DNA of 52,098 nucleotides from Basidiobolus meristosporus CBS 931.73 (lineage: Eukaryota; Basidiobolomycota; Basidiobolomycetes; Basidiobolales; Basidiobolaceae): positions 1 through 52,098 of the forward strand of contig MCFE01000621.1 in NCBI GenBank assembly GCA_002104905.1. The letters run 5' to 3'. Below are positions 4,345 to 47,495 of this stretch, one piece after another. Under the pieces are notes generated by a model. That model saw nothing but the letters and a program-made list of their open reading frames with translations. It was not told where the DNA came from and searched no databases. Numbering within the stretch: the first letter of the stretch is position 1; each line of letters begins with the position of its first letter. Both the position numbers and the translations under genes were made by a program.

Positions 4345-4973
4345 TGTGGTGGTGTATAAGTCCAAGGGAGAGATACGTCCAACACTTCTCAAGTGTTTTG
4401 TGTGTGGGGTGTTCACTGGGTGCAATAGCCTCTGGAAAAAGCTTGCTAGGAATACTGGGTTCTGTCTCTATTCCAATGTGATGGGGAAGAAAGCCGCAAG
4501 CTTGTCAAGGGAAAACTATTGAGCCACAATCCCCAACTTAGTTGGTGTCTTAACAAAAGTATGTGCTGGGTTCAGCATCCTTTGAGATGACAATGTACTA
4601 AAGCTTCCAAAGTCAAAACAACTGTAAACTCCTCCAGCAGGGACTTGATAAGAATGCAGCTGTGGTCAATAGCTACAAAGACAGAAAAGTATCCTTGCCT
4701 GTACAGGAACAAATTTAGGAAAGAATTAAATAGAATAAAAGATACCTACTCTGAGTATTCCTCACAAGTAGTGCCTCCAAGGTCAGTTGGCTGTCAGCAC
4801 AGTTTCCTGGGAGTTTCCTGTGGTCTGCAGTTGGAAGTTCAGGTAGCAGCAGGTAGCAGTGATCACACCAATCAACAAGTTGGTATATTGATAAAAGGGA
4901 TGATAATTTATTGTTGAGGGATAGCCTCCCTTACATACTTTTCTTACTGGCTACGTGATTACTAATCATGGTG

Positions 4974-5131
4974 TTCCAGAAGGTTCTGGATATCAATAGA
5001 AATCTTAATGACATTAGAATGACCTAAAAATGCTCCAAGTAGGTGCTGGAAGGTTCTAAGAGGCACAGCACATCCAACCAATCAGGAATCAGTTCTCTGA
5101 AACCAGTGAAACATAGGGATACCATATATGG
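4974..5131 (-). promoter_or_regulatory. Heat-shock element and CArG box in E1 (inner unit)
   Basis: TTCCAGAAGGTTC at 4974-4986 is a perfect three-unit heat-shock element (TTCnnGAAnnTTC), followed by TGGAT as a weak fourth unit. A perfect CArG box, CCATATATGG, lies at 5122-5131 inside a longer palindrome. Both lie upstream of the decayed TATA (TATGTAAGG on the minus strand, near 4930), in the order CArG, HSE, TATA. Binding by Hsf1 or a MADS-box factor is inferred from the motifs only. Confidence 0.55.
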
Positions 5132-5507
5132 TATGGAAATGGTAGGGATGGTGACATAGGTTGATCATGTGTCATAGGTACTGGCACAGGTACTTGCCTA
5201 ATATAGAAGCACTTACTGCTAGTAATCTTACATAAAGTGGGGGATAACTTATGCAATAGGTAAGCAGGTGTGATAGTCAACCAGCTGATGAGATAGTACT
5301 GATCAGGTAAGACAAATGGGATAAAACTGAATTAAGGGTAGTAGAGAAATAGGGAAGTAGAAAATTTGGGAATGAGCACATCTGTCAGCAGGTGTCCCTG
5401 TCACCCCACTATACTGGTGTGTTGATAAAAGGGATGATGATTTATTGTCAAGGGATAGCCTCCCTTATATACTTTTCTTACTGGTCAAGTGATTACTAAT
5501 CATGGTG

Positions 5508-5665
5508 TTCCAGAAGGTTCCAGATATCAATAGAAATCTTAATGACATCAGAATGACCTAAGAATGTTCTAAGTAGGTGCTGGAAGGTTCTAAGAGGCAC
5601 AGCACATCCTACCAATCATGAATCAGTACTATGAAACCTGTGTAACATAGGGATACCATATATGG
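5508..5665 (-). promoter_or_regulatory. Heat-shock element and CArG box in E1 (outer unit)
   Basis: The tandem U3 copy repeats the same pair: TTCCAGAAGGTTC at 5508-5520 (perfect TTCnnGAAnnTTC) and CCATATATGG at 5656-5665. Here the downstream TATA (TATATAAGG on the minus strand, near 5463-5471) is intact. Confidence 0.55.
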
Positions 5666-5948
5666 TATGGAAATGCAAGGGATGGTGACACAGGTTGATC
5701 ATGTATCAAAGGTACTGGCATGGGTACTTGCCTAATATTGAAGCACTTACTGCTAGTAATCTTACATAAAGTGGAGGATAGCGTATGCAATAAGGTAAGC
5801 AGGTGTGATAGTCTACTGGCTTATGGGATAGTACTGATCAGGTAATACAAATGTGACAAAACTAAAACAAGGGTAGTAGAGAAATAGAGAAGTAGGAAAT
5901 ATAGGAATGAGCACATCTGTCAGTGGGCGTCACTGCAACCCCACTACA

Positions 5949-6205
5949 GAGCTTGATTTTCTTAATTCTTCATCCAGGAGTCTTCCTTATATGTAATTTA
6001 AGGTCAAATCTTCAGTTCCCGGCTCTAGGGCTGATACAAGGCCCTGAGACCTGTATGTCAGGCTACTCAGGATGTTTACTATCAAATCCTCATCAATACT
6101 TGGTACACCCACAGATTCCATCTCATCCACCAGCAGGGCAGCTCTGTTAACTAGATTTCTCATTTCTTTGCCTGGCAGTGTCTTGGTAGTGACAAATATT
6201 CATCC
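5949..6205 (-). pseudogene. Copia A1b gag remnant, right of E1
   Basis: The sequence continues copia A1b gag after E1 and aligns by eye with 1225-1475 in A1 and 46555-46800 in A2. It covers the middle of gag, read leftwards. It stops at about 6205, before the 5' end of gag and the 5' LTR, where repeat R2 begins. No long frame survives. Confidence 0.7.
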
Positions 6206-6334: not shown

Positions 6335-6820
6335 CATTTCAAGCTAGGCAAGGAAGGACCAGGAAAGGACTTAGGTGTGGAACAACAAGGCAAGGCTGTT
6401 TATTCAAGACCTGTGTTTATCAGACTGAGAAATATGTAGGGGGGATGGAACTAGATATACTTTTTAGTAATATGGCTGCCAAGAGATATTGACTTGTACT
6501 GATGGGGTTCTGAGGTGAGGTACAGTAAGTGTGCCAAGATAAAAATATACTGAAGAATAGACTAGAGCATCACATGGGATAAGCCAAGAGTGAGCCAAAA
6601 ATGCAACTAGGACATGCTACATGCAATTACCATATATGGTATGAAGCTACATAAGCTCCAAAGGGAGCTTTGATAGAATGTTCCAATGTGTAACATTGAT
6701 TTTGAGCATTTCAGCAGTTGCTAGAACATAGTAGAACTTTCTAGAAGGAACTGGGAATTCTGCACCAATTTGACTTGGCTGAATTATAAAAGGTCAAGGT
6801 TGTCATGTAGAACTCTGTTG
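6335..6820 (-). repeat. LTR of family X, copy 1 (degenerate)
   Basis: It aligns in reverse orientation with the complete solo LTR X3 at 29191-29695: the blocks around 6350-6440 (AGGACCAGGAAAGGACTTAG, then TGTTTATCAGACTGAG), the TATACTTTTT block near 6455, and GGTTGTCATG near 6795. Both ends are eroded, so the coordinates are approximate. No target duplication is evident. It lies inside or beside an R2 copy. Confidence 0.6.
6630..6746 (-). promoter_or_regulatory. CArG box and heat-shock element in X1
   Basis: CCATATATGG at 6630-6639 is a perfect CArG palindrome. GAACTTTCTAGAA at 6734-6746 is a perfect three-unit heat-shock element (GAAnnTTCnnGAA), with AACTGGGAATTC following as partial further units. 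Confidence 0.5.
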
Positions 6821-8330
6821 TTACTGTATCCATTTGTTATTCCATCTTGCTTGGTGTATTACTAAGAAGCTCATTGTGAATATTCAGGAGGTATTCAAGG
6901 CAAAAGTGGTGGTAACCCAGCATATGATTGCAAGATGTGTATGTTACCAGCAACATAAGGTATATAGCAACTTTGCAAGCATCACAATAGAAAGCCACAA
7001 AGTTATGGTGATAGAAGTATTCCAATTGCAGCAGGTATGCACATATGAAGAGGTTAGCAATTAGGAGACCATAGCTTTTTGATTCAAAATCTATGTGGAA
7101 TACCCAAGGCAGTGGTGGGTCAGCAAATAAAGAGGGGTGATTCCACAGTGGAATATATGAGTGGCCTAAGGGCAGGTAGAAAAAGCAAATACCACTTGGT
7201 AAATTGGTATGATATTATTAAACAGAACTGGCTGTATGTTGATGTGCTGCCATTTCAATGCCAGCAAAGGTTTGCAATAAGGCTGTCAGAGCTTCATAAA
7301 ATCTCTTTCCACATAAGCCACTTGGATGTAATGGTTGGTTAGGTTGGCCCAAATAAGTGAAGTGCGCATTAAGACCTTTAGAATGCCATGCAATTGTTGT
7401 CAAAAGACTGATTAAACACCATCAGGTTATTTACTTCATTTGGCAGTAAAATCCACAAAATGCTGTCACAATTGTATCATAGAATTTTGTAGCCAGTCAG
7501 TAATTCCACACTGCTGGCATCATGATGGACTTATTGCTGGATCCTGACAGCTGATCTGGCTCAGATACACACACAAGTCCATATTACTTTTCATAGGAAT
7601 ATTGTGACTAGAGAAGTGACATGTTGCCACTAGTTTCAGTAGTGGGAGTACTGTACATAAGTATAGACAAGGCAAGAAGCATGTACCACCATATCCCAAT
7701 CTTATTGGCTAATACTGATGGGAATTGTTGTATCCAAGAGAAAAGTGTAATAGTACTCTTGAGTGGTTTAAAGGCAACAAAGTTAGTTTGCTATGCAGGC
7801 TAGACTTGGTGTTCTTGGGAGTACTAGATATGCTAAGCCTGGGTAGAAGCTTGAATAGAATTGTTAAATTCTTAATTTTGTTGAGATCAACTTTCAGCCA
7901 AAAGGCTTAGCAGGTTTTTTATATTTTTCTGTTCAAGTTAGGCTAGTAAGTACCAGGAGAATGAACAAATGAAGTCAATCATTGTATAAATAGGTGCATA
8001 AGATAAATGCAATTGCATCATCAATCAGCTGATATCTTGGCAACTGCTCAGTGGTTGGATGGACCTCAGAGGACTAATCACTCTGGAAGACTTAGCAGAG
8101 AAGTTGATAACACAATGACCACATGATAACTGATCTGGTGTAGCAGCAAAAAATAGATTCAGAAGCGGGATAAATAAACCTTAACTGGCATTAGGTGTGT
8201 TTGGGTTATGGAAAATCAGTTAGGGCACTATATTTTCTAATGCAGTAGAACTGGCTAAGTTACCAAGTATTGATGCACCACATCACTTTCCACCAGAAGA
8301 GGAGTTTTCTGATAACTTTTGTTTTCCCCT
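6821..8330. other. Unassigned repeat-like sequence
   Basis: I find no supported gene in these 1.5 kb. Several frames of 60-90 codons occur on both strands without recognisable motifs. A block near 7595-7650 (GTGACTAGAGAAGTG onward) resembles 43275-43320 in the same orientation, so part of this is a diverged repeat. The segment next to 8340 may include the 3' end and LTR of chromovirus G0, but no LTR boundary could be fixed. Confidence 0.4.
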
Positions 8331-16739: not shown

Positions 16740-17440
16740 ATCAAAGCAAAAAGGTGAGAACTGGTAGACTTACCAAATGGGAGAAAGCCAATAGGATGTA
16801 GATGGGTCTACAAGATCAAGATAACCTCAAATGGTGCCATTGATAAGTAAAAGGCTAGATTTGTGGCTAAAGGCTATTCCCAGATCTAGGGACTAGACTT
16901 AAGGAAATATTTGCTCCAGATGCCAAGTTTAGCTCCATTAGGACAGTTCTAGCCCTGGCAGCTGTACACAGTCTAGATCTACACCAAATGGACATCAAAG
17001 CAGCCTTTTTAAATGGGGATTTGCAAGAAACTATATATTTAGAGCAACCAGAAGGTTTTACCCATCCAAAAGACCCCCATAAGATGTGCAACTTGGAAAA
17101 TTGTTGTAGAGACTTAAGCAGGCACCTAGAGCATGGTATAACAAGATTTACACATATCTGGAGGAAATTGGGTTCTCTTGTAGCACTGTAGATCACACTA
17201 TATATGTGAAATAGCTCAAAAGGGGTGTGATCATCCTAGTTCATTATGTGGACAACCTACTTATAGCTACAAGTGACCAAGAGGCACTTAAACAGATGAC
17301 ATCAGATCTCTTCAGCAAGTTTGAGCAGCAAGATCTTGGAAATTGAGCTATTTTCTTGGAATTGAGATCAAAATTGACATACCTACACAGAAAATTGTGC
17401 TGAGTTAGTCTAAGTACATCAGGAACATTCTTGAATGCTT
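16740..17440 (+). pseudogene. Copia B reverse transcriptase remnant (YVDN)
   Basis: The palm segment MDIKAAFLNGDLQETIYLEQ is at 16988-17047. The catalytic box near 17248-17265 reads HYVDNLLIATS: the second Asp of YVDD is Asn (codon AAC). Upstream, GYSQI is followed by an in-frame TAG (about 16889) and a one-base deletion soon after it. A further one-base deletion lies near 17340, before AGCTATTTTCTTGG. All four lesions are shared with copia C. Confidence 0.8.
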
Positions 17441-17444
17441 CAAA

Positions 17445-18236
17445 TTGGAAAATTGCAGACTTGCAGCTACCCCTATAGACAATAACCTGAAATTGAGCAC
17501 ATCTCAGCCAGTTATAGATGTAAACGGCTCAAATATGGACCAAAACTTTCCCTTTCAATCAGTAGTTGGTAGCCTAATGTACTTGCTGGTGTCTACGCGT
17601 CCAGATATTGCAGTGGCAATTGGAACAGTCATTCAATTCATGCAGAATTATGGATCAGAACATATTATAGTAGCTAAGTGGATTTTCAGATATCTACAAG
17701 GCACCATAAATATGGTACTGGAATTCTCTGGAGCAGCAAATAGGCAAGTATTTGATGGTTATAGTGAGTCAGATTGGGGTAGGGATCTGATTGACAGATG
17801 CGCTACCACAGGCTATGTATTTCTTTATGCTGGTGCAGCTATTACTTGGAATTGCAAGAAACAACCAACTGTGGCCCTATCTACAACTGAAGCAGAATAT
17901 ATGGCTGCATGTCAAGCATCTAAGGAGGTTGTATGGCTACAAAAATTATTTAAAGACTTGGGTTTTAGTTAAAATGAACCAACATGTATTTTCAAGGATA
18001 ATCAAAGTTGTATTTTGTTAGCTAGACATCCTACTAATCATGCCAGAACTAAGCACATTGATATGCAGCATCACTTGGTGAGGGAAGCTGTAGAGAATAA
18101 CTTAGTAGAGTTAGTGTACTACCCAACTAACAAAATGGTGGCAGATATATTGACAAAACCACTTACTAGGCCACAATTTGAGAATCTCAGGGAGGAATTA
18201 GGATTAAGAAATTATTTAGTTGAGGGGGAGGGCTGA
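17445..18236 (+). pseudogene. Copia B RNase H segment (largely open)
   Basis: Two open segments (17445-17972 and 18015-18236) cover the end of RT and copia RNase H: RPDIAVAIGTVIQFMQNYGS, the SDWGRDLIDR motif, ALSTTEAEYMAACQASKEVV with the catalytic Glu region, then HARTKHIDMQHHLVREAVEN and MVADILTKPLTRPQFENL. One stop (TAA, 17970-17972) and a frame change separate the two parts. It ends at the polypurine tract next to the 3' LTR. Confidence 0.8.
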
Positions 18237-20726: not shown

Positions 20727-21094
20727 TGTTATGATCTGCCGCTTGAATGTGTAAGTTAGATCAGTTTTTAGTCAAATCAATTAGTATATGTTTAGGTTAT
20801 CAGTATATCAGTATTATCTATCAAATCAGTAGCATTAGTCAGCAAATGAATCAGCAGATCCTTATCAGACAGAAATAGATATATTAGGTAGGATTGTATT
20901 GGTTGATGATGATGCAATCAGATGAGTCATCAGCCACAACCTACATTAGGAAATACAATTAGTCAGCAATTGATCTGGCAAAATGTATATAAGGAGCTGC
21001 TGGAACCTCAATAAAAATCAGTTCAAGTTTTAGTGAATACAATACTAGCTAAACTCCCTATTCCTCTACAACTCTTATACCAAGACTTGTAACA
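20727..21094 (+). repeat. G1 5' LTR
   Basis: From TGTTATGATCTGCCGCTTG to GACTTGTAACA. A TATA-like TGTATATAAGGAG lies near 20986. CTCAATAAAAATCAG near 21010 resembles a polyadenylation signal. It is nearly identical to 26371-26737. Confidence 0.9.
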
Positions 21095-21874: not shown

Positions 21875-22945
21875 TGTAGTGGGGTGACAGTGACACCCAC
21901 TGACAGATGTGCTCATTCCCTTATTTTCTACTTCCCTATATCTCTACTACACTTATTTTAGTTTTATCCCATTTGTCTTACCCAATCAGTACTATCCCAT
22001 AAGCCGGTTGACTATCACACCTGCTTACCTTATTGCATAAGTTACCCCTCACTTTATGTAAGATTACTAGCTATAAGTACTTCTATATTAGGCAAGTACC
22101 TGTACCAGTACCCGTGACACATGATCAGCCCGTGTCACCATCCCTGCTATTTCCATACCATATATGGTGTCCCCATGTTACACAGGTTTCAGAATACTGA
22201 TTCCTGATTGGTTGGATGTGCTGTGCCTCTTAGAACCTTCCGGCACCTACTTAGAACATTCTTAGGTCATTCTGATGTCACTAAGATTTCTATTGATCTT
22301 CGGAACCTTCTGGAACACCATGATTAGTAATCACTTAGCCGGTAAGAAAAGTATATAAGGGAGGCTATCCCTCAACAATAAATCATCATCCCTTTTTATC
22401 AATATACCAACTTGTTGATTAGTGTGATCACTGCTACCTGCTGCTACCTGAACTTCCAACCCCAGACCACAGGACACTCCCAGGAAACCGCGCTGACAGC
22501 CAACTGACCTTGGAGGCACTACTTGTGAGGAATACTCAGAGTAGGTATCTTTTATTATATTTGATTCTTTCCCAAGTTTGTTCTTGTACAGGCAAAGCTA
22601 CTTTTCTGTCTTTGTAACTATTGACCACAGCTGCATTCTTATCAAGTCCCTGCTGGTGGAGTTTACAGTTGTTTTGACTTTGGAAGCTTTAGTACATTGT
22701 CATCTCAAAGGACGCTGATCCCAGCACATACTTTTGTTAAGACGCCAACTAAGTTGGGGATTGTAGCTCAATAGTTTTCCCTTGACAAGCTTGTGGCTTT
22801 ATTCCCCTTCACATTAGATTAGAGACAGAACCCAGTATTCCTGGCAAGCTTTTTCCAGAGGCTATTGCACCCAGTGAACACCCCACACACAAAACACTTG
22901 AGAAGTGTTGGACGTATCTCTCCCTTGGACCTATACACCACCACA
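21875..22945 (+). mobile_element. Solo LTR E2
   Basis: A 1071-bp LTR, TGTAGTGGGG to CACCACCACA, flanked by perfect 4-bp duplications ACGC (21871-21874 and 22946-22949). It contains TATA (AGTATATAAGG, near 22350) and CAATAAATC near 22376. No internal region is present, so it is a solo LTR left by LTR-LTR recombination, or an unusually long LTR-like element. It matches the full unit of E1 in reverse orientation. Its first about 25 bp form an imperfect hairpin. Confidence 0.8.
22158..22357 (+). promoter_or_regulatory. CArG box, heat-shock element and TATA of E2
   Basis: CCATATATGG at 22158-22167, then GAACCTTCTGGAA at 22303-22315 (perfect GAAnnTTCnnGAA), then TATATAAGG near 22352. The heat-shock element lies about 40 bp upstream of TATA, as in heat-shock promoters. 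Function is inferred. Confidence 0.55.
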
Positions 22946-26370: not shown

Positions 26371-26737
26371 TGTTATGATCTGCCGCTTGAATGTTTAAGT
26401 TAGATCAGTTTTTAGTCAAATCAATTAGTATATGTTTAGGTTATCAGTATATCAGTATTATCTATCAAATCAGTAGCATTAGTCAGCAAATGAATCAGCA
26501 GATCCTTATCAGACAGAAATAGTTATATTAAGTAGGATCTTATTGGGTGATGATGATGCAATCAGATGAGTCATCAGCCACAACCTACATTAGGAAATAC
26601 AATTAGTCAGCAATTGATCTGGCAAAATGTATATAAGGAGCTGCTGGAACCTCAATAAAATCAGTTCAAGTTTTAGTGAATACAATGCTAGCTAAACTCC
26701 CTATTCCTCTACAACTCTGATACCAAGACTTGTAACA
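26371..26737 (+). repeat. G1 3' LTR
   Basis: Starts TGTTATGATCTGCCGC and ends CTTGTAACA. It is followed by CAGA, the right copy of the target duplication. Confidence 0.9.
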
Positions 26738-28940: not shown

Positions 28941-29190
28941 TTTTTGATTTTTGCTGTTACAATGATATAAGTCTATATATAGGAGTTGTAGAGGAATAGG
29001 GAGTTTAGCTAGTATTGTATTCACAACAACCTGAACTTATCATTGTCAAGGCTCTAGTGGCACTTTATATACATTTTGCCTGATCACCTCCTGACTAATT
29101 GTATTCTCTGATTTTAGTTGTGGCTGATGTTCATTCTATTGCATCATCTTCAATTAATTAGATCTTAACTTACAAATCTATTAATGACTG

Positions 29191-29695
29191 TGTCCTGATC
29201 ACATGACAACCATGAACACCCGTGCCAAGTTTCAGCTTCCGAGCTCAATTTCTAAGAGATTCCTTCTGGAACCTTCTACCACCTTCCAGAAAGTTCCTGA
29301 CCATTCCAAACCATTGTTATACAAGGGAACATTCCATGGAAGCTTCCTATTGTATATTTCATAGTCCAGTACCAAATATGGAAATACCAGCTCACATGAC
29401 TTAGTCACATGATCAGGTGACCCAATCCATTTCCCCATCCTGTCTCAGTGCCTTGCCTTCTATATAATTATCCCCAGCACTGCTGCTGTGCCTCACCCCA
29501 CAACCCCATTAGTATTAGCTAATATCTCTTGGCATCAGTATAGCCAAAAAGTATATATAGTCCTATCCCCCCTTAAGTATTCCTCAGTCTGATAAACACA
29601 GGTCTTGATTAAACAGCCTTGCCTTGGAAATCTGCCTTGCCTTGTTGATCCACACCTAGTCCTTTCTTGGTCCTGCCTTGCGTCTATTCATAACA
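29191..29695 (+). repeat. Solo LTR X3, complete
   Basis: A 505-bp sequence from TGTCCTGATCACATGAC to TTCATAACA, flanked by ACTG on both sides (29187-29190 and 29697-29700 read as direct repeats). It contains TATATAA at 29461 and GATAAACACAGG near 29591. It is related, in reverse orientation, to X1 and X2. No coding region is attached. This is the reference copy for family X. Confidence 0.75.
29264..29381 (+). promoter_or_regulatory. Two heat-shock elements and a CArG box in X3
   Basis: TTCTGGAACCTTC at 29264-29276 and TTCCAGAAAGTTC at 29284-29296 are both perfect three-unit heat-shock elements, 7 bp apart. CCAAATATGG at 29372-29381 fits the CArG consensus. All lie upstream of TATATAA at 29461. 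Confidence 0.6.
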
Positions 29696-31507: not shown

Positions 31508-32392
31508 ATGACTTACTCATCTGAATGGTCTTTTCTCATCAATCCCATCACTACCACTTAATTTTCTTTTGACACACTAGAGGACATCTATACCAAGTAC
31601 TGTGGTCCATCTACCCCAATCTACTCATGGAGATCCCTGGTTAAGCTTCTTGGCTATTACAAGATCTATTGCCCTACAAGGTTTCTTCCAACCATCCTTG
31701 CCAACAAAAGTCCTAGAAGCTTTCATTCTCAGCTGACAGCAATGGAGAACCACCTTGCAGAGGGTATGAATGACTTTGAGCAAGCTTGGAGTACTAGGTT
31801 TAGAAGCTCCAATAGACTTCCATATCCCAGAGTGTTCAGCAACAGGTTCCATTTAAGGAGTATTTTGGATACCTACCCATTCAGGATTAATAGGCCTTCT
31901 AGAGTGCAGAGGCACTTTTATGCTGGCAAGTACAAGGCACACTGTGTGAAGTGTCAAGCACTGTCTGACACTGAGGGTAACATCTTCTGGTTTAGTGGAC
32001 CATTTGCTGGAAGTAGGCATGACAAAGCACTCTGGGTAGAGAATCATCCAGAATTCAGTAGAGGGGAGAAATGTATGGCAGACTTAGCTTATATAAAAGA
32101 GGATTGTCTGAGATTAGGATGTATTGCAGCTTATAGGAAACCAAGGAATGGTGTGCTTAGCAGGAAGCAGAAGCCCTACAATGAGATATTTAATCATTTC
32201 ACAGTGAGGGTAGAGCATAAATTTAGATATCTGAAGAGATTCAGTATATTGGCAGGTAAATACAGAGGAAAGTCATATATAGGAGAAAACAGCAGAATAG
32301 GTAAAATAGTTAAGATACTTATCAATGCACAGTATATTCATACAAGAAGACCTTCTCTGAGAGAAATGTGTCTGGAGCATTATGAAGAGTAA
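31508..32392 (+). CDS. DDE transposase of the PIF/Harbinger (DDE_Tnp_4, IS5-like) type
   Basis: The enzyme would cut and paste Harb-A and its MITEs. From ATG 31742 there are 216 open codons with conserved blocks ILDTYPFRINRPSR, FYAGKYKAHCVKCQALSD, IFWFSGPFAGSRHDKALW, CMADLAYIKEDCLRLG and VRVEHKFRYLKRFSIL. The likely triad, numbered from 31742, is D43, D114 and E158; D94 sits in the conserved SRHD block. The same frame extends upstream through KLLGYYKIYCPTRFL to an ATG at 31508, with one in-frame TAA at 31559. The shorter start at 31742 may be used, or the N-terminus may be truncated by that stop. About 200-290 residues is shorter than typical HARBI1-like proteins. No second Myb-like gene lies within this copy. 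Confidence 0.85.
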
Positions 32393-44900: not shown

Positions 44901-45299
44901 AAGCATAGGTAGTTACATGTTGACATTATTGTAATATTTATATCAGAAGCAGATTACCAATGCCAACTTGAATCATCTATAGCTTTTATGCAAGGAGTTT
45001 AGTGTTGAGATTTGAGTAGCTATAGTACAAGCATAAAGCTGGGTACATGGATCTCTGCAGCTACTGCACCCATCTTTACTCCATCTTGGTTAGTGTGTGG
45101 AAAATGTAGCACCTTGCTTCACCTTATCAGAGTTTCCTTTAGAGCACATGTGTGAGGACATATAAAGGGGAGTCAAGTTGCAGGTACTACCATATCCCAA
45201 TCTCTTCAAGACTATCATCCTGTATTTGGTTTATATCCACACCATGCTTCAGATGGAGTAGTATCACAAAGTATTCTGTAATAACTCTTATTTTGAAGT
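44901..45299. other. No gene seen
   Basis: A+T-rich sequence between R2 and copia A2. I see no coding, RNA or repeat feature I can support. Confidence 0.4.
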
Positions 45300-47163
45300 T
45301 ATGTAGCTGTGTTAACTGATTCTACCCAAAAATCACAGGATAATTTCTGATCATAGATCAAAGTTCTTGTCATATCAATTATTGTGCTGTTTGCATGTTC
45401 TGCTGATCCATTTTGCTGTGGGGAGTATGGTACAGTAGTCTCTTGCTTTATCCCATGAATTTTGCAGAAGTGGATGAAGAGCTTGAGGTATACTCTCCAC
45501 CTTGGTCAGAGCGTATTTTCATGATTTTTTCACCATTTTCTCTCTCCACCATGGCTTTGAACTCCCTGAGCTTAGACAGAGCTTCTTCCTTTCTCTCCAT
45601 GAAGTAAACCTATGTGAATTCTGTATAATCATCAATAAAAGTGATTAAATACTTCATCCCACCTAAGGATAAATTTTGCATAGGTCCACACAGATCTGAG
45701 TGAATTAGATCTAATTTTTTCTTAGTTTTGATTAACCCAGAGCTCTTGAACAGTTGTCTGGCTTGTTTCCCATATATGCAGGCCTCACAGTGCTCCAAAT
45801 TAGCTGGGGGATCAATTTTTACTCCGGAAATTAGCTGATCTTTGATCATTTTGCACAAATAATCAAAATTTATGTGTCCAAATCTCCTGTGCCAAAGCAT
45901 TGGTGTTTCTTCATTTTAGCTACTTATATTGGCTTCCAAATATGATTGAATATAAGTCAACTTGTATAGATTCTGATCTCTGATACCCAAAGCAATATGG
46001 GCACCATTTTGATCAGTGACCCTGCATCCAGAATTGTCAAAGCTGAAACTGAGTCCTTCTGCAGTGGCCTTGCTTACAGATAGTAGGTTCTTGGCTATTT
46101 CTGGTACATGGAGTACTTCTTTAAAGGTCAGTGTATGGCTTCCTTCACTGATTCTAAGGTTTACTAGGATAGTTCCTTCTCCCACTGCATCAGGTGTTCT
46201 ATAGTCACCCATGAAAACCTTCTTAATTGGAATTTCTTGAAATTGGGTAAAAGTTCTTTTGGGTGTGTAAAGTGTTGAGATGCTCCAGAGTCAATATACC
46301 ACATCTGAGAATCCTTGTTTTTGGTCATATTTAGTGCAGATATGAATAGTCTATCTTCAGTTGTTGCAGCATTTCCATGTTCAGGCTTCTTTGGATGATT
46401 ATCTCTCTTTTTGAGACACCAGTCTGATGTGTGTCCTTTCCTTTTATATTGGTTGCAAAACAGGTTTCTGTTGCCTTTGTAGGGTCTTGGGTACCTCCTT
46501 TGCTGGTTATCATTGCTTATTAAAGCATCTTCTTCTTCCATCTTATTGGCGCTTGATTTTTTTGATTCTTCATCCAGTCACCTTCCATATAAGTAATTTA
46601 AGGTCAAATCTTTAGTTCTGGACTCTAGGGCTGATATAAGGCCCTGAAACTTGTCTGTCAGGCTATTCAGGATGGTAACTACCACATCCTCATCAGTAGG
46701 TGGTACACCCACAGATTCCATCTCATCTTCCATCAGGGTAATTCTGTTAATTAGGTTTTTCATTTCTTCTCTTGGCAGCATCTTTATAGTGAAGAATTTT
46801 TGTCTCAGATACATCTTCTTAGCAGCTGCACATGACTGGTAGGTGTCTTCTAATGCCTTCCAGGCATTCTTTGCCATTTTTGCTCTTGAGCATTGAATTA
46901 GCAATTTATCCTAAACATTGAGGCCAATGCAGTTAAAGGCACTTTGTTCTTTCTTCTGGTACTTTAAGGCTTCCTCTCCCACATTTTTAGGAGGGCATTC
47001 TTCTCCCATAACAATATCCCAAAGGCCTCTTTCTTGTAGCAGCATCTTCATCTTCACCTTCCACACTTGGTAGTTAGATCTATCCAACTTTTCAGCAGAG
47101 GGAAAAATTCCAGTAATAGCAGTAGTAGACATTGCAGAGAGTGACAGCTTGGGGCTCATAACC
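45300..47163 (-). pseudogene. Copia A2 gag to integrase, truncated
   Basis: The third family-A copy, read leftwards. Gag starts in the primer-binding site at 47160 (MSPKLSLSAMSTTAITGIFP) and continues through YQVWKVKMKMLLQERGLWDI and NAWKALEDTYQSCAAAKKMY. A zinc knuckle remnant, protease start (MWYIDSGASQHFTHPKE, DSGAS intact), GAG-pre (45916-46212) and integrase start (45610-45900: MLWHRRFGHINFDYLCKMIK, LSLGGMKYLITFIDDYTEFT) follow. Integrase continues degenerate to about 45300, where the element is cut. RT and RNase H are absent. There are several stops, but individual domains are well preserved. Confidence 0.85.
47151..47163 (-). other. Copia A2 primer-binding site overlapping the gag start codon
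   Basis: GGTTATGAGCCCC follows the LTR directly on the minus strand. It is complementary to the anticodon stem-loop of initiator tRNA-Met (GGGCTCATAACC). The ATG inside it is the start of gag (MSPKLSL); the corresponding ATG in A1 is at 1831. Confidence 0.65.
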
Positions 47164-47495
47164 TGTTGTAAGAGTCTTGGAGATATTGGAAGTGATTGGG
47201 AGGACAAGTAGATTATGTGGTTTTCACTTAATGATTTATTGAATGTAAAAGTAGTATTTATACTTTTACATGATCTTGGCATAACAAGCACATATAATAG
47301 GTTAAGGAAGGTCCCAAGAGCATGTGTGCAAAGTTTGGGGCTGTTTGGACAACTTATCCAATTTTCATGATCTGGGTAAATATTCTAAGTAAATTCCGAC
47401 AAGGAATTTGGTCAGTATTCTCTAGGATTTGAAGGTAATGATCTAAGTGACTAAGTTAGGTGAATATTTAGGTGGAATTACAAGTTTTTACAACA
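47164..47495 (-). repeat. Copia A2 5' LTR
   Basis: 332 bp, TGTTGTAAGAGTC to TTTACAACA; the terminal 8 bp (TGTTGTAA and TTACAACA) are inverted repeats. It is highly similar to 1836-2184. Confidence 0.85.

Follow-up and report, generated by a model that had tools for sequence, protein, structure and literature searches.

The window, by which we mean the whole 52,098-nt stretch of DNA analysed here, from Basidiobolus meristosporus CBS 931.73 (phylum Basidiobolomycota according to NCBI), contains LTRs of two families, E and X, that carry heat-shock elements (HSEs) of three contiguous units (Table 1). An exact-pattern scan of the whole window for the forms TTCnnGAAnnTTC and GAAnnTTCnnGAA confirmed all six three-unit HSEs that an earlier note on this DNA had placed in these LTRs. 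A seventh match, at 17423-17435, falls within an open frame (17409-17972) that is copia-like by eye, and it is probably a coding coincidence. Since the scan returned these seven sites only, the absence of HSEs from the G1 and copia LTRs, which had also been noted, was borne out. Simulated windows contained a mean of 0.57 three-unit HSEs under a first-order Markov model and 0.63 under a second-order model (maxima of 4 and 3, respectively; 200 runs each), so that the six noted sites stand against ~0.6 expected. Because the three E sites are homologous copies, as are the X1 site and X3 site 1, we counted the six as three independent sites, namely the E site, X site 1 and X site 2. Elsewhere in the window, the G1 LTR, which is without an HSE, carries TGAGTCA at 20923-20929 and 26567-26573, 63 bp upstream of TATA at 20986, a word that we take to be Gcn4/AP-1-like, and a DDE_Tnp_4 transposase domain lies in a reading frame at 31562-32392.

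Table 1. LTRs of families E and X in the window and the promoter features within them.
Feature	Position	Strand	Remarks
E1, E LTR with internal tandem duplication	4345..5949	-	inserted in an element recurring at 5-2184 and 45289-47495
HSE of E1, first copy	4974..4986	-	exact-pattern scan
HSE of E1, second copy	5508..5520	-	exact-pattern scan
X1, LTR of X' lineage	6348..6825	-	70% to X3 over 435 bp; outer end approximate
HSE of X1	6734..6746	-	homologous to X3 site 1
E2, solo LTR of family E	21875..22945	+	TGTAGT...ACCACA ends, 1071 bp; inside the element called gypsy G1; flanked by a 4-bp target duplication, ACGC
CArG box of E2, CCATATATGG	22158..22167	+	145 bp upstream of HSE; 10 positions with 0 internal and 17 terminal changes (70 rows)
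13-mer with strongest constraint in E alignment	22181..22193	+	0 internal and 24 terminal changes; p=0.00034, uncorrected
HSE of E2, GAAnnTTCnnGAA	22303..22315	+	start 49 bp upstream of TATA; core without internal-branch changes
TATATAA box of E2	22352..22358	+	index 478 of E LTR, counted from 21874
X3, LTR of family X	29189..29692	+	inserted in a G1-like LTR; 3' end approximate; sense from full-length copy in contig C1144
X3 HSE site 1	29264..29276	+	common to X' (X1-like) lineage; core 0 internal and 11 terminal changes
X3 HSE site 2	29284..29296	+	X only; core 1 internal and 9 terminal changes
CArG box of X3, CCAAATATGG	29372..29381	+	downstream of HSEs; no internal changes in outer CC/GG and 2 in A/T core (44 rows)

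When E2 was used as a genome query, 40 of the 44 matches listed (the best 40 of 2390 candidates scored) covered more than 80% of it, and three pairs of copies among the matches listed lay ~6.1 kb apart. The E LTR is 1071-1072 bp long, with TG...CA ends and 4-bp target duplications, and the two LTRs of the one pair compared, in contig C839, are 99.6% identical. The inner frames match RVT_1, RNase H, H2C2 and rve in Ty3 order, with rve below the Pfam cut-off, and the reading frames of the full-length copy supplied the strand sense used for E. With paired TG...CA LTRs, a short target duplication and the RT-RNase H-integrase order all present, E is a Ty3-type LTR retrotransposon. E1 is a single LTR in which an internal tandem duplication of ~532 bp has made the HSE present twice, which corrects the earlier note; its positions 4345-5411 match 22945-21877 of E2 at 93%, and 4881-5411 are repeated as 5415-5946 at 90%. 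Five solo E LTRs with matching flanks, out of nine LTR loci, have the target duplications ACGC, GCGC, GCGC, TCGG and GCGG, all of the form NCGN, and the pair examined in the sister lineage E' has CCGC; these duplications point to a possible CpG-centred insertion preference.

The X LTR is ~0.5 kb long, and certain copies are paired 5.4-5.9 kb apart. A full-length copy matched Ty3_capsid, RVT_1, RNase H, H2C2, rve and Chromo, each over the cut-off; having gag, the RT-RNase H-integrase order and a chromodomain at the integrase end, X is a Ty3-type chromovirus. The LTRs of E and X, in which the earlier note had seen no overall similarity beyond the HSE and the CArG box, belong to two distant Ty3-type retrotransposons, and the RT regions of the two share 23% identity across 266 residues. 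LTRs of both families contain a CArG box, and the one in E suggests a MADS-box partner. Since the elements are arranged as CArG, HSE and TATA in E but as HSE and CArG in X, the two promoters do not look like a single inherited unit. In contig C358, X-type four-unit HSEs occur at 86861 and 92250, and their separation of 5,389 bp, which is that of an X LTR pair, suggests a single X copy whose two LTRs both have the strong form.

Sister lineages of both families carry the HSE as well. The E' LTR is 804 bp long, the LTRs of one pair (contig C773) are 99.9% identical, and the inner part of ~2.0 kb contains a frame resembling gag and a match to aspartyl protease that falls below the cut-off; two frames scanned there, together covering nearly the whole inner part, gave no RT match. 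The gag sequences of E' and E share 33% identity, as against ~70-78% for the LTR parts compared. E' looks like a young gag-and-protease-only element, perhaps moved by the proteins of E or of a third lineage, E3, whose places lie ~6.1 kb apart and whose HSE has four units. Between E and E', at ~70% overall identity, two of the four linker bases of the HSE differ and none of the nine core bases; between X and X', at 67-75% identity, three of the four linker bases differ and again none of the nine in the core. The distance from HSE to TATA is 49 bp in E, 49 bp in E' and 48 bp in E3, although the intervening 35 bp of E and E3 can be aligned only weakly (shuffle p ~0.02). E3 and E' were first spotted by an HSE search, and their copies were then gathered by other anchors. 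With flanking anchors and 20 bases left free, 134 E3 places were found; among the 100 listed, 85 had all four units and 89 had at least three, and mean variation per position for every 100 copies listed was 1.3 in the core and 8 in the linkers. Most of this linker variation falls on one CpG linker (CG to TG/CA decay), and we rejected neutral CpG decay as the whole explanation, since it fits that one E3 linker but not the E/E' and X/X' linker differences overall. A further E lineage, with copy L006 as the query, was also rejected: apart from L006 itself, the matches listed share the query only from ~67 on, the 20 examined out of 39 had neither an HSE nor a TATAAG-type box, and we read them as a separate repeat beside L006.

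The 89.0-Mb genome (1,311 contigs) was searched with anchors lying outside the HSE, which at up to 3 mismatches found 1,587 E-type and 544 X-type places, compared with 0 and 0 for the reversed patterns. Forty copies of each type were sampled from 100 places listed, with nearly all exact E' types left out of the E sample; since the places listed all match the anchor without mismatch, old copies are under-sampled. The core was intact in 33 of 40 E-type copies gathered via the TATA anchor and in 19 of 19 E' copies. X copies gathered via a downstream anchor had an intact core in 27 of 40 cases at site 1 and 23 of 40 at site 2, and 4 of the 13 site-1 failures are truncated or deleted there. The nine X' rows were all without site 2, and the site-1 core was intact in four of them, with the losses falling on tips.

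Three-unit HSEs number 3,383 genome-wide (1727+1656), compared with 1,822 (951+871) for the pattern read backwards, and at least 981 of the 3,383 lie in E and E' copies, counting those in which the downstream anchor is exact. The four-unit pattern, which is its own reverse complement so that both strands count the same sites, occurs at 200 genome sites compared with 14 in the control, a 14-fold excess that belongs mostly to one lineage. Among the first 50 four-unit sites listed, 45 had the E3-type string by eye; two of the others are in contig C358 (one of them inside an X LTR), one is in E' (contig C26), one is E-like by its string and one lies outside these assignments. HSE density outside the families was judged from the pattern counts plus 20 sites picked from 100 listed, mostly for unusual linkers, of which 11 were E- or X-like and 9 were neither.

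Since conservation among young copies mostly reflects descent, we excluded it as evidence and instead assigned changes to the branches of trees, where changes on tips are mostly post-insertion and neutral and internal changes mostly arose in lineages that kept multiplying. In E plus E' (70 rows), no internal change fell on the nine core positions of the HSE, which had 8 terminal ones; the four linkers had 4 internal and 2 terminal changes, and the remaining 487 columns 298 internal and 753 terminal. For X site 1, in 44 rows, the core had 0 internal and 11 terminal changes, the linkers 4 of each kind, and the other sites 203 internal and 546 terminal. Summed over both families, the cores had 0 internal and 19 terminal changes and the linkers 8 internal changes, and the combined one-sided tests gave p=0.002 for core versus other sites and p=0.0002 for core versus linkers. 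In single families, the two-sided comparison of core with other sites gave p=0.11 for E, which is not significant, and p=0.04 for X site 1, and the argument for HSE constraint needs both families or the linker contrast. When frames of nine plus four positions were slid along the alignments, the observed values were reached by 2 of the 466 E frames and by 1 of the 409 X frames, the HSE itself included, although a core lacking internal changes is by itself not unusual (4% of E frames and 13% of X frames). No special constraint was detected at X site 2, where 21 of 409 slid frames were equally good. Conservation of the spacing across copies, which the earlier note had put forward as a check, therefore held when the E site and X site 1 were considered jointly, at the combined p=0.002, and failed for X site 2.

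The absence of internal core changes did not depend on the choice of rows: the internal count for the core was still 0 with all 73 E rows and all 48 X rows, and core and linker counts were unchanged when three retained rows that had been found by the HSE pattern were dropped. The rows left out of E were E1b, L001 and L056, whose ends lie outside the homologous LTR stretch, and those left out of X were L099, L107 and L119, which are truncated, and L102, which is deleted over site 1; L024 and L002, being without an exact anchor, were left unaligned. In E, the CArG box and the 13-mer at 22181..22193 are more constrained than the HSE, and the HSE is therefore not the sole control.

The host HSP70 genes provide a comparison for the layout of these promoters. 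HSP70 had 28 genome matches, 19 of them nearly full-length, and a five-gene HSP70 cluster occupies 1828-15285 of contig C416. Seventeen HSP70 upstream regions were examined, ten with TATA at -80 to -125, and nine of these were distinct over the 55 bp examined. In six of the nine distinct promoters, an HSE with at most one mismatch (exact in one) starts 45-58 bp before TATA, whereas shuffles predict 0.12 such promoters for the search zone used (20-75 bp upstream of TATA). The proximity of the E2 HSE to TATA, which the earlier note had pointed out, thus has a host parallel, but this HSP70-like geometry is confined to E-type LTRs, the X HSEs lying 177-197 bp from the nearer TATA candidate. Exact three-unit HSEs were present in 2 of the 17 HSP70 regions, and the LTR sites are therefore nearer to the ideal motif than most host sites.

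As would be expected of HSF-driven elements, the LTRs have at least three contiguous alternating GAA/TTC units upstream of TATA, and multiplying lineages have kept the core when the E site is taken with X site 1, though not at X site 2. We consider it likely that the E and X LTR promoters carry genuine sites for the host heat-shock factor and respond to heat via Hsf1, and heating probably leads both families to make new copies of themselves; Hsf1 binding, heat induction and extra transposition are what we infer from these sequence patterns. In response to heat or protein stress, the LTR HSE would be bound by an Hsf1 trimer, or by two trimers in the four-unit form, and bound Hsf1 would recruit the transcription machinery, raising full-length transcripts and with them retrotransposition. 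In E-type LTRs, transcription would start from the TATA ~49 bp downstream of the HSE, in a layout close to that of host HSP70 promoters, while the HSEs of X LTRs would work from a more distant upstream position. Once a lineage lost the HSE core, its multiplication would cease. E3 would be expected to respond most, since four-unit sites went with the largest heat response in Brassicaceae (PMC5059998).

The main rival partner is Skn7: the sites could be real and selected but serve Skn7 or another HSF-domain protein, giving an oxidative, osmotic or constitutive response rather than one to heat. The genome has 25 HSF-domain matches at ~19 places, which is many for a fungus, and yeast Skn7 binds HSE-like sites. 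Among the matches read, Hsf1-type domains with FVRQLNMYGFHK occur at three loci, one of them similar to solved HSF1/HSF2, and Skn7-like domains with FVRQLNKYDFHK at four. One Hsf1-type frame is identical to K493DRAFT_209285 of B. meristosporus CBS 931.73 across 96% of the query. We nevertheless regard this alternative as unlikely, since a near-identical motif stands at almost equal spacing in the HSP70 promoters, and since contiguous three- and four-unit forms are what plant HSF trimers bind, with moderate and strong responses, respectively (PMC5059998).

It is less probable still that the HSEs are chance words hitch-hiking from founder copies and common only because the families are common. 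Copies in one young lineage do share sites by descent, the E core on its own does not differ significantly from other sites, and no constraint was detected at X site 2. However, the core was kept while linkers changed in two independent lineage pairs, E/E' and X/X', the TATA distance of E3 is conserved though the DNA between barely aligns, and the four-unit form is in 14-fold excess, albeit mostly through one lineage. Finally, other words in the same LTRs are equally or more constrained, and constraint does not name a factor, but the idea that the element merely resembles an HSE and is bound by some other host or element factor is very improbable given that E and X, although unrelated, share the 9-of-13 pattern, which HSP70 promoters also show, mostly with one mismatch.

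The Hsf1 reading places E and X beside several known systems. The suggestion that they are fungal counterparts of ONSEN stands as a likeness of mechanism but not as membership, ONSEN being a copia element and E and X having the Ty3 domain order. For ONSEN/ATCOPIA78 of Arabidopsis, HSFA2 binding and heat induction have been shown (PMC3907296, PMC5059998). Like E and X, the Brassicaceae elements ONSEN, COPIA37, TERESTRA and ROMANIAT5 carry HSEs in the LTR promoter, with three or four contiguous units in the strong cases (PMC3907296, PMC5059998); predicted three-unit sites there went with an up to hundredfold and four-unit sites with an up to thousandfold heat response (PMC5059998), and HSEs were likewise gained recurrently across several families. 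In contrast with ONSEN, a plant copia element, E and X are of Ty3 type and reside in an early-branching fungus, and their heat response is a prediction from sequence.

Closer in host are TCN12 and TCN3 of Cryptococcus, which like E and X are fungal LTR elements with putative HSEs; their mobility is greater at 37 C, and the authors propose Hsf1 (PMC12810828). Unlike in E and X, one and two putative HSEs are reported for them, and no constraint test was found in the parts of that article on which we drew (PMC12810828). The same article, in 2026, called heat shock-induced activation of transposable elements via host machinery 'undescribed' in fungi. Other fungal LTR elements, MAGGY and Pyret of Magnaporthe oryzae, have been tied to genome instability under heat shock in a paper (PMC3978060) that cites earlier work on stress-induced activation of the MAGGY promoter; 'heat shock element' and words starting with 'HSE' were not found in its main text. 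Among animals, Caenorhabditis Helitrons resemble E in that a transposon supplies a large share of genome HSEs, 61.4% in that case, but differ from E and X in being DNA transposons (PMC6927752). A literature search, mainly of titles and abstract openings and with few subscription papers, found no report of HSEs in Basidiobolus elements. The kind of element described here is thus already known, from ONSEN and from Cryptococcus TCN12 and TCN3; what is added is a fungal phylum for which no report was found, two unrelated Ty3 families and a constraint test.

Plants and animals are known to have transposons driven by heat. In this genome there are two unrelated families, four lineages, young copies and a sequence signature of selection. 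A wider interpretation, which we advance tentatively and at somewhat less than even confidence, is that heat-shock control is a shared growth strategy of abundant LTR retrotransposons here: unrelated Ty3 families may each have gained HSEs, one lineage may have built the four-unit form at the HSP70 distance, E' would have kept its HSE while having gag and protease only, and the LTRs, as suppliers of a large share of genome HSEs, could make nearby genes part of the heat-shock response. This would make them the first well-supported fungal transposon case of heat activation by host Hsf1. Members of the genus Basidiobolus dwell in the amphibian gut (PMC10386755). If heat-shock control is real, temperature shifts, which are natural for such a fungus, could have helped to build its 89-Mb genome and could have scattered HSEs beside host genes.
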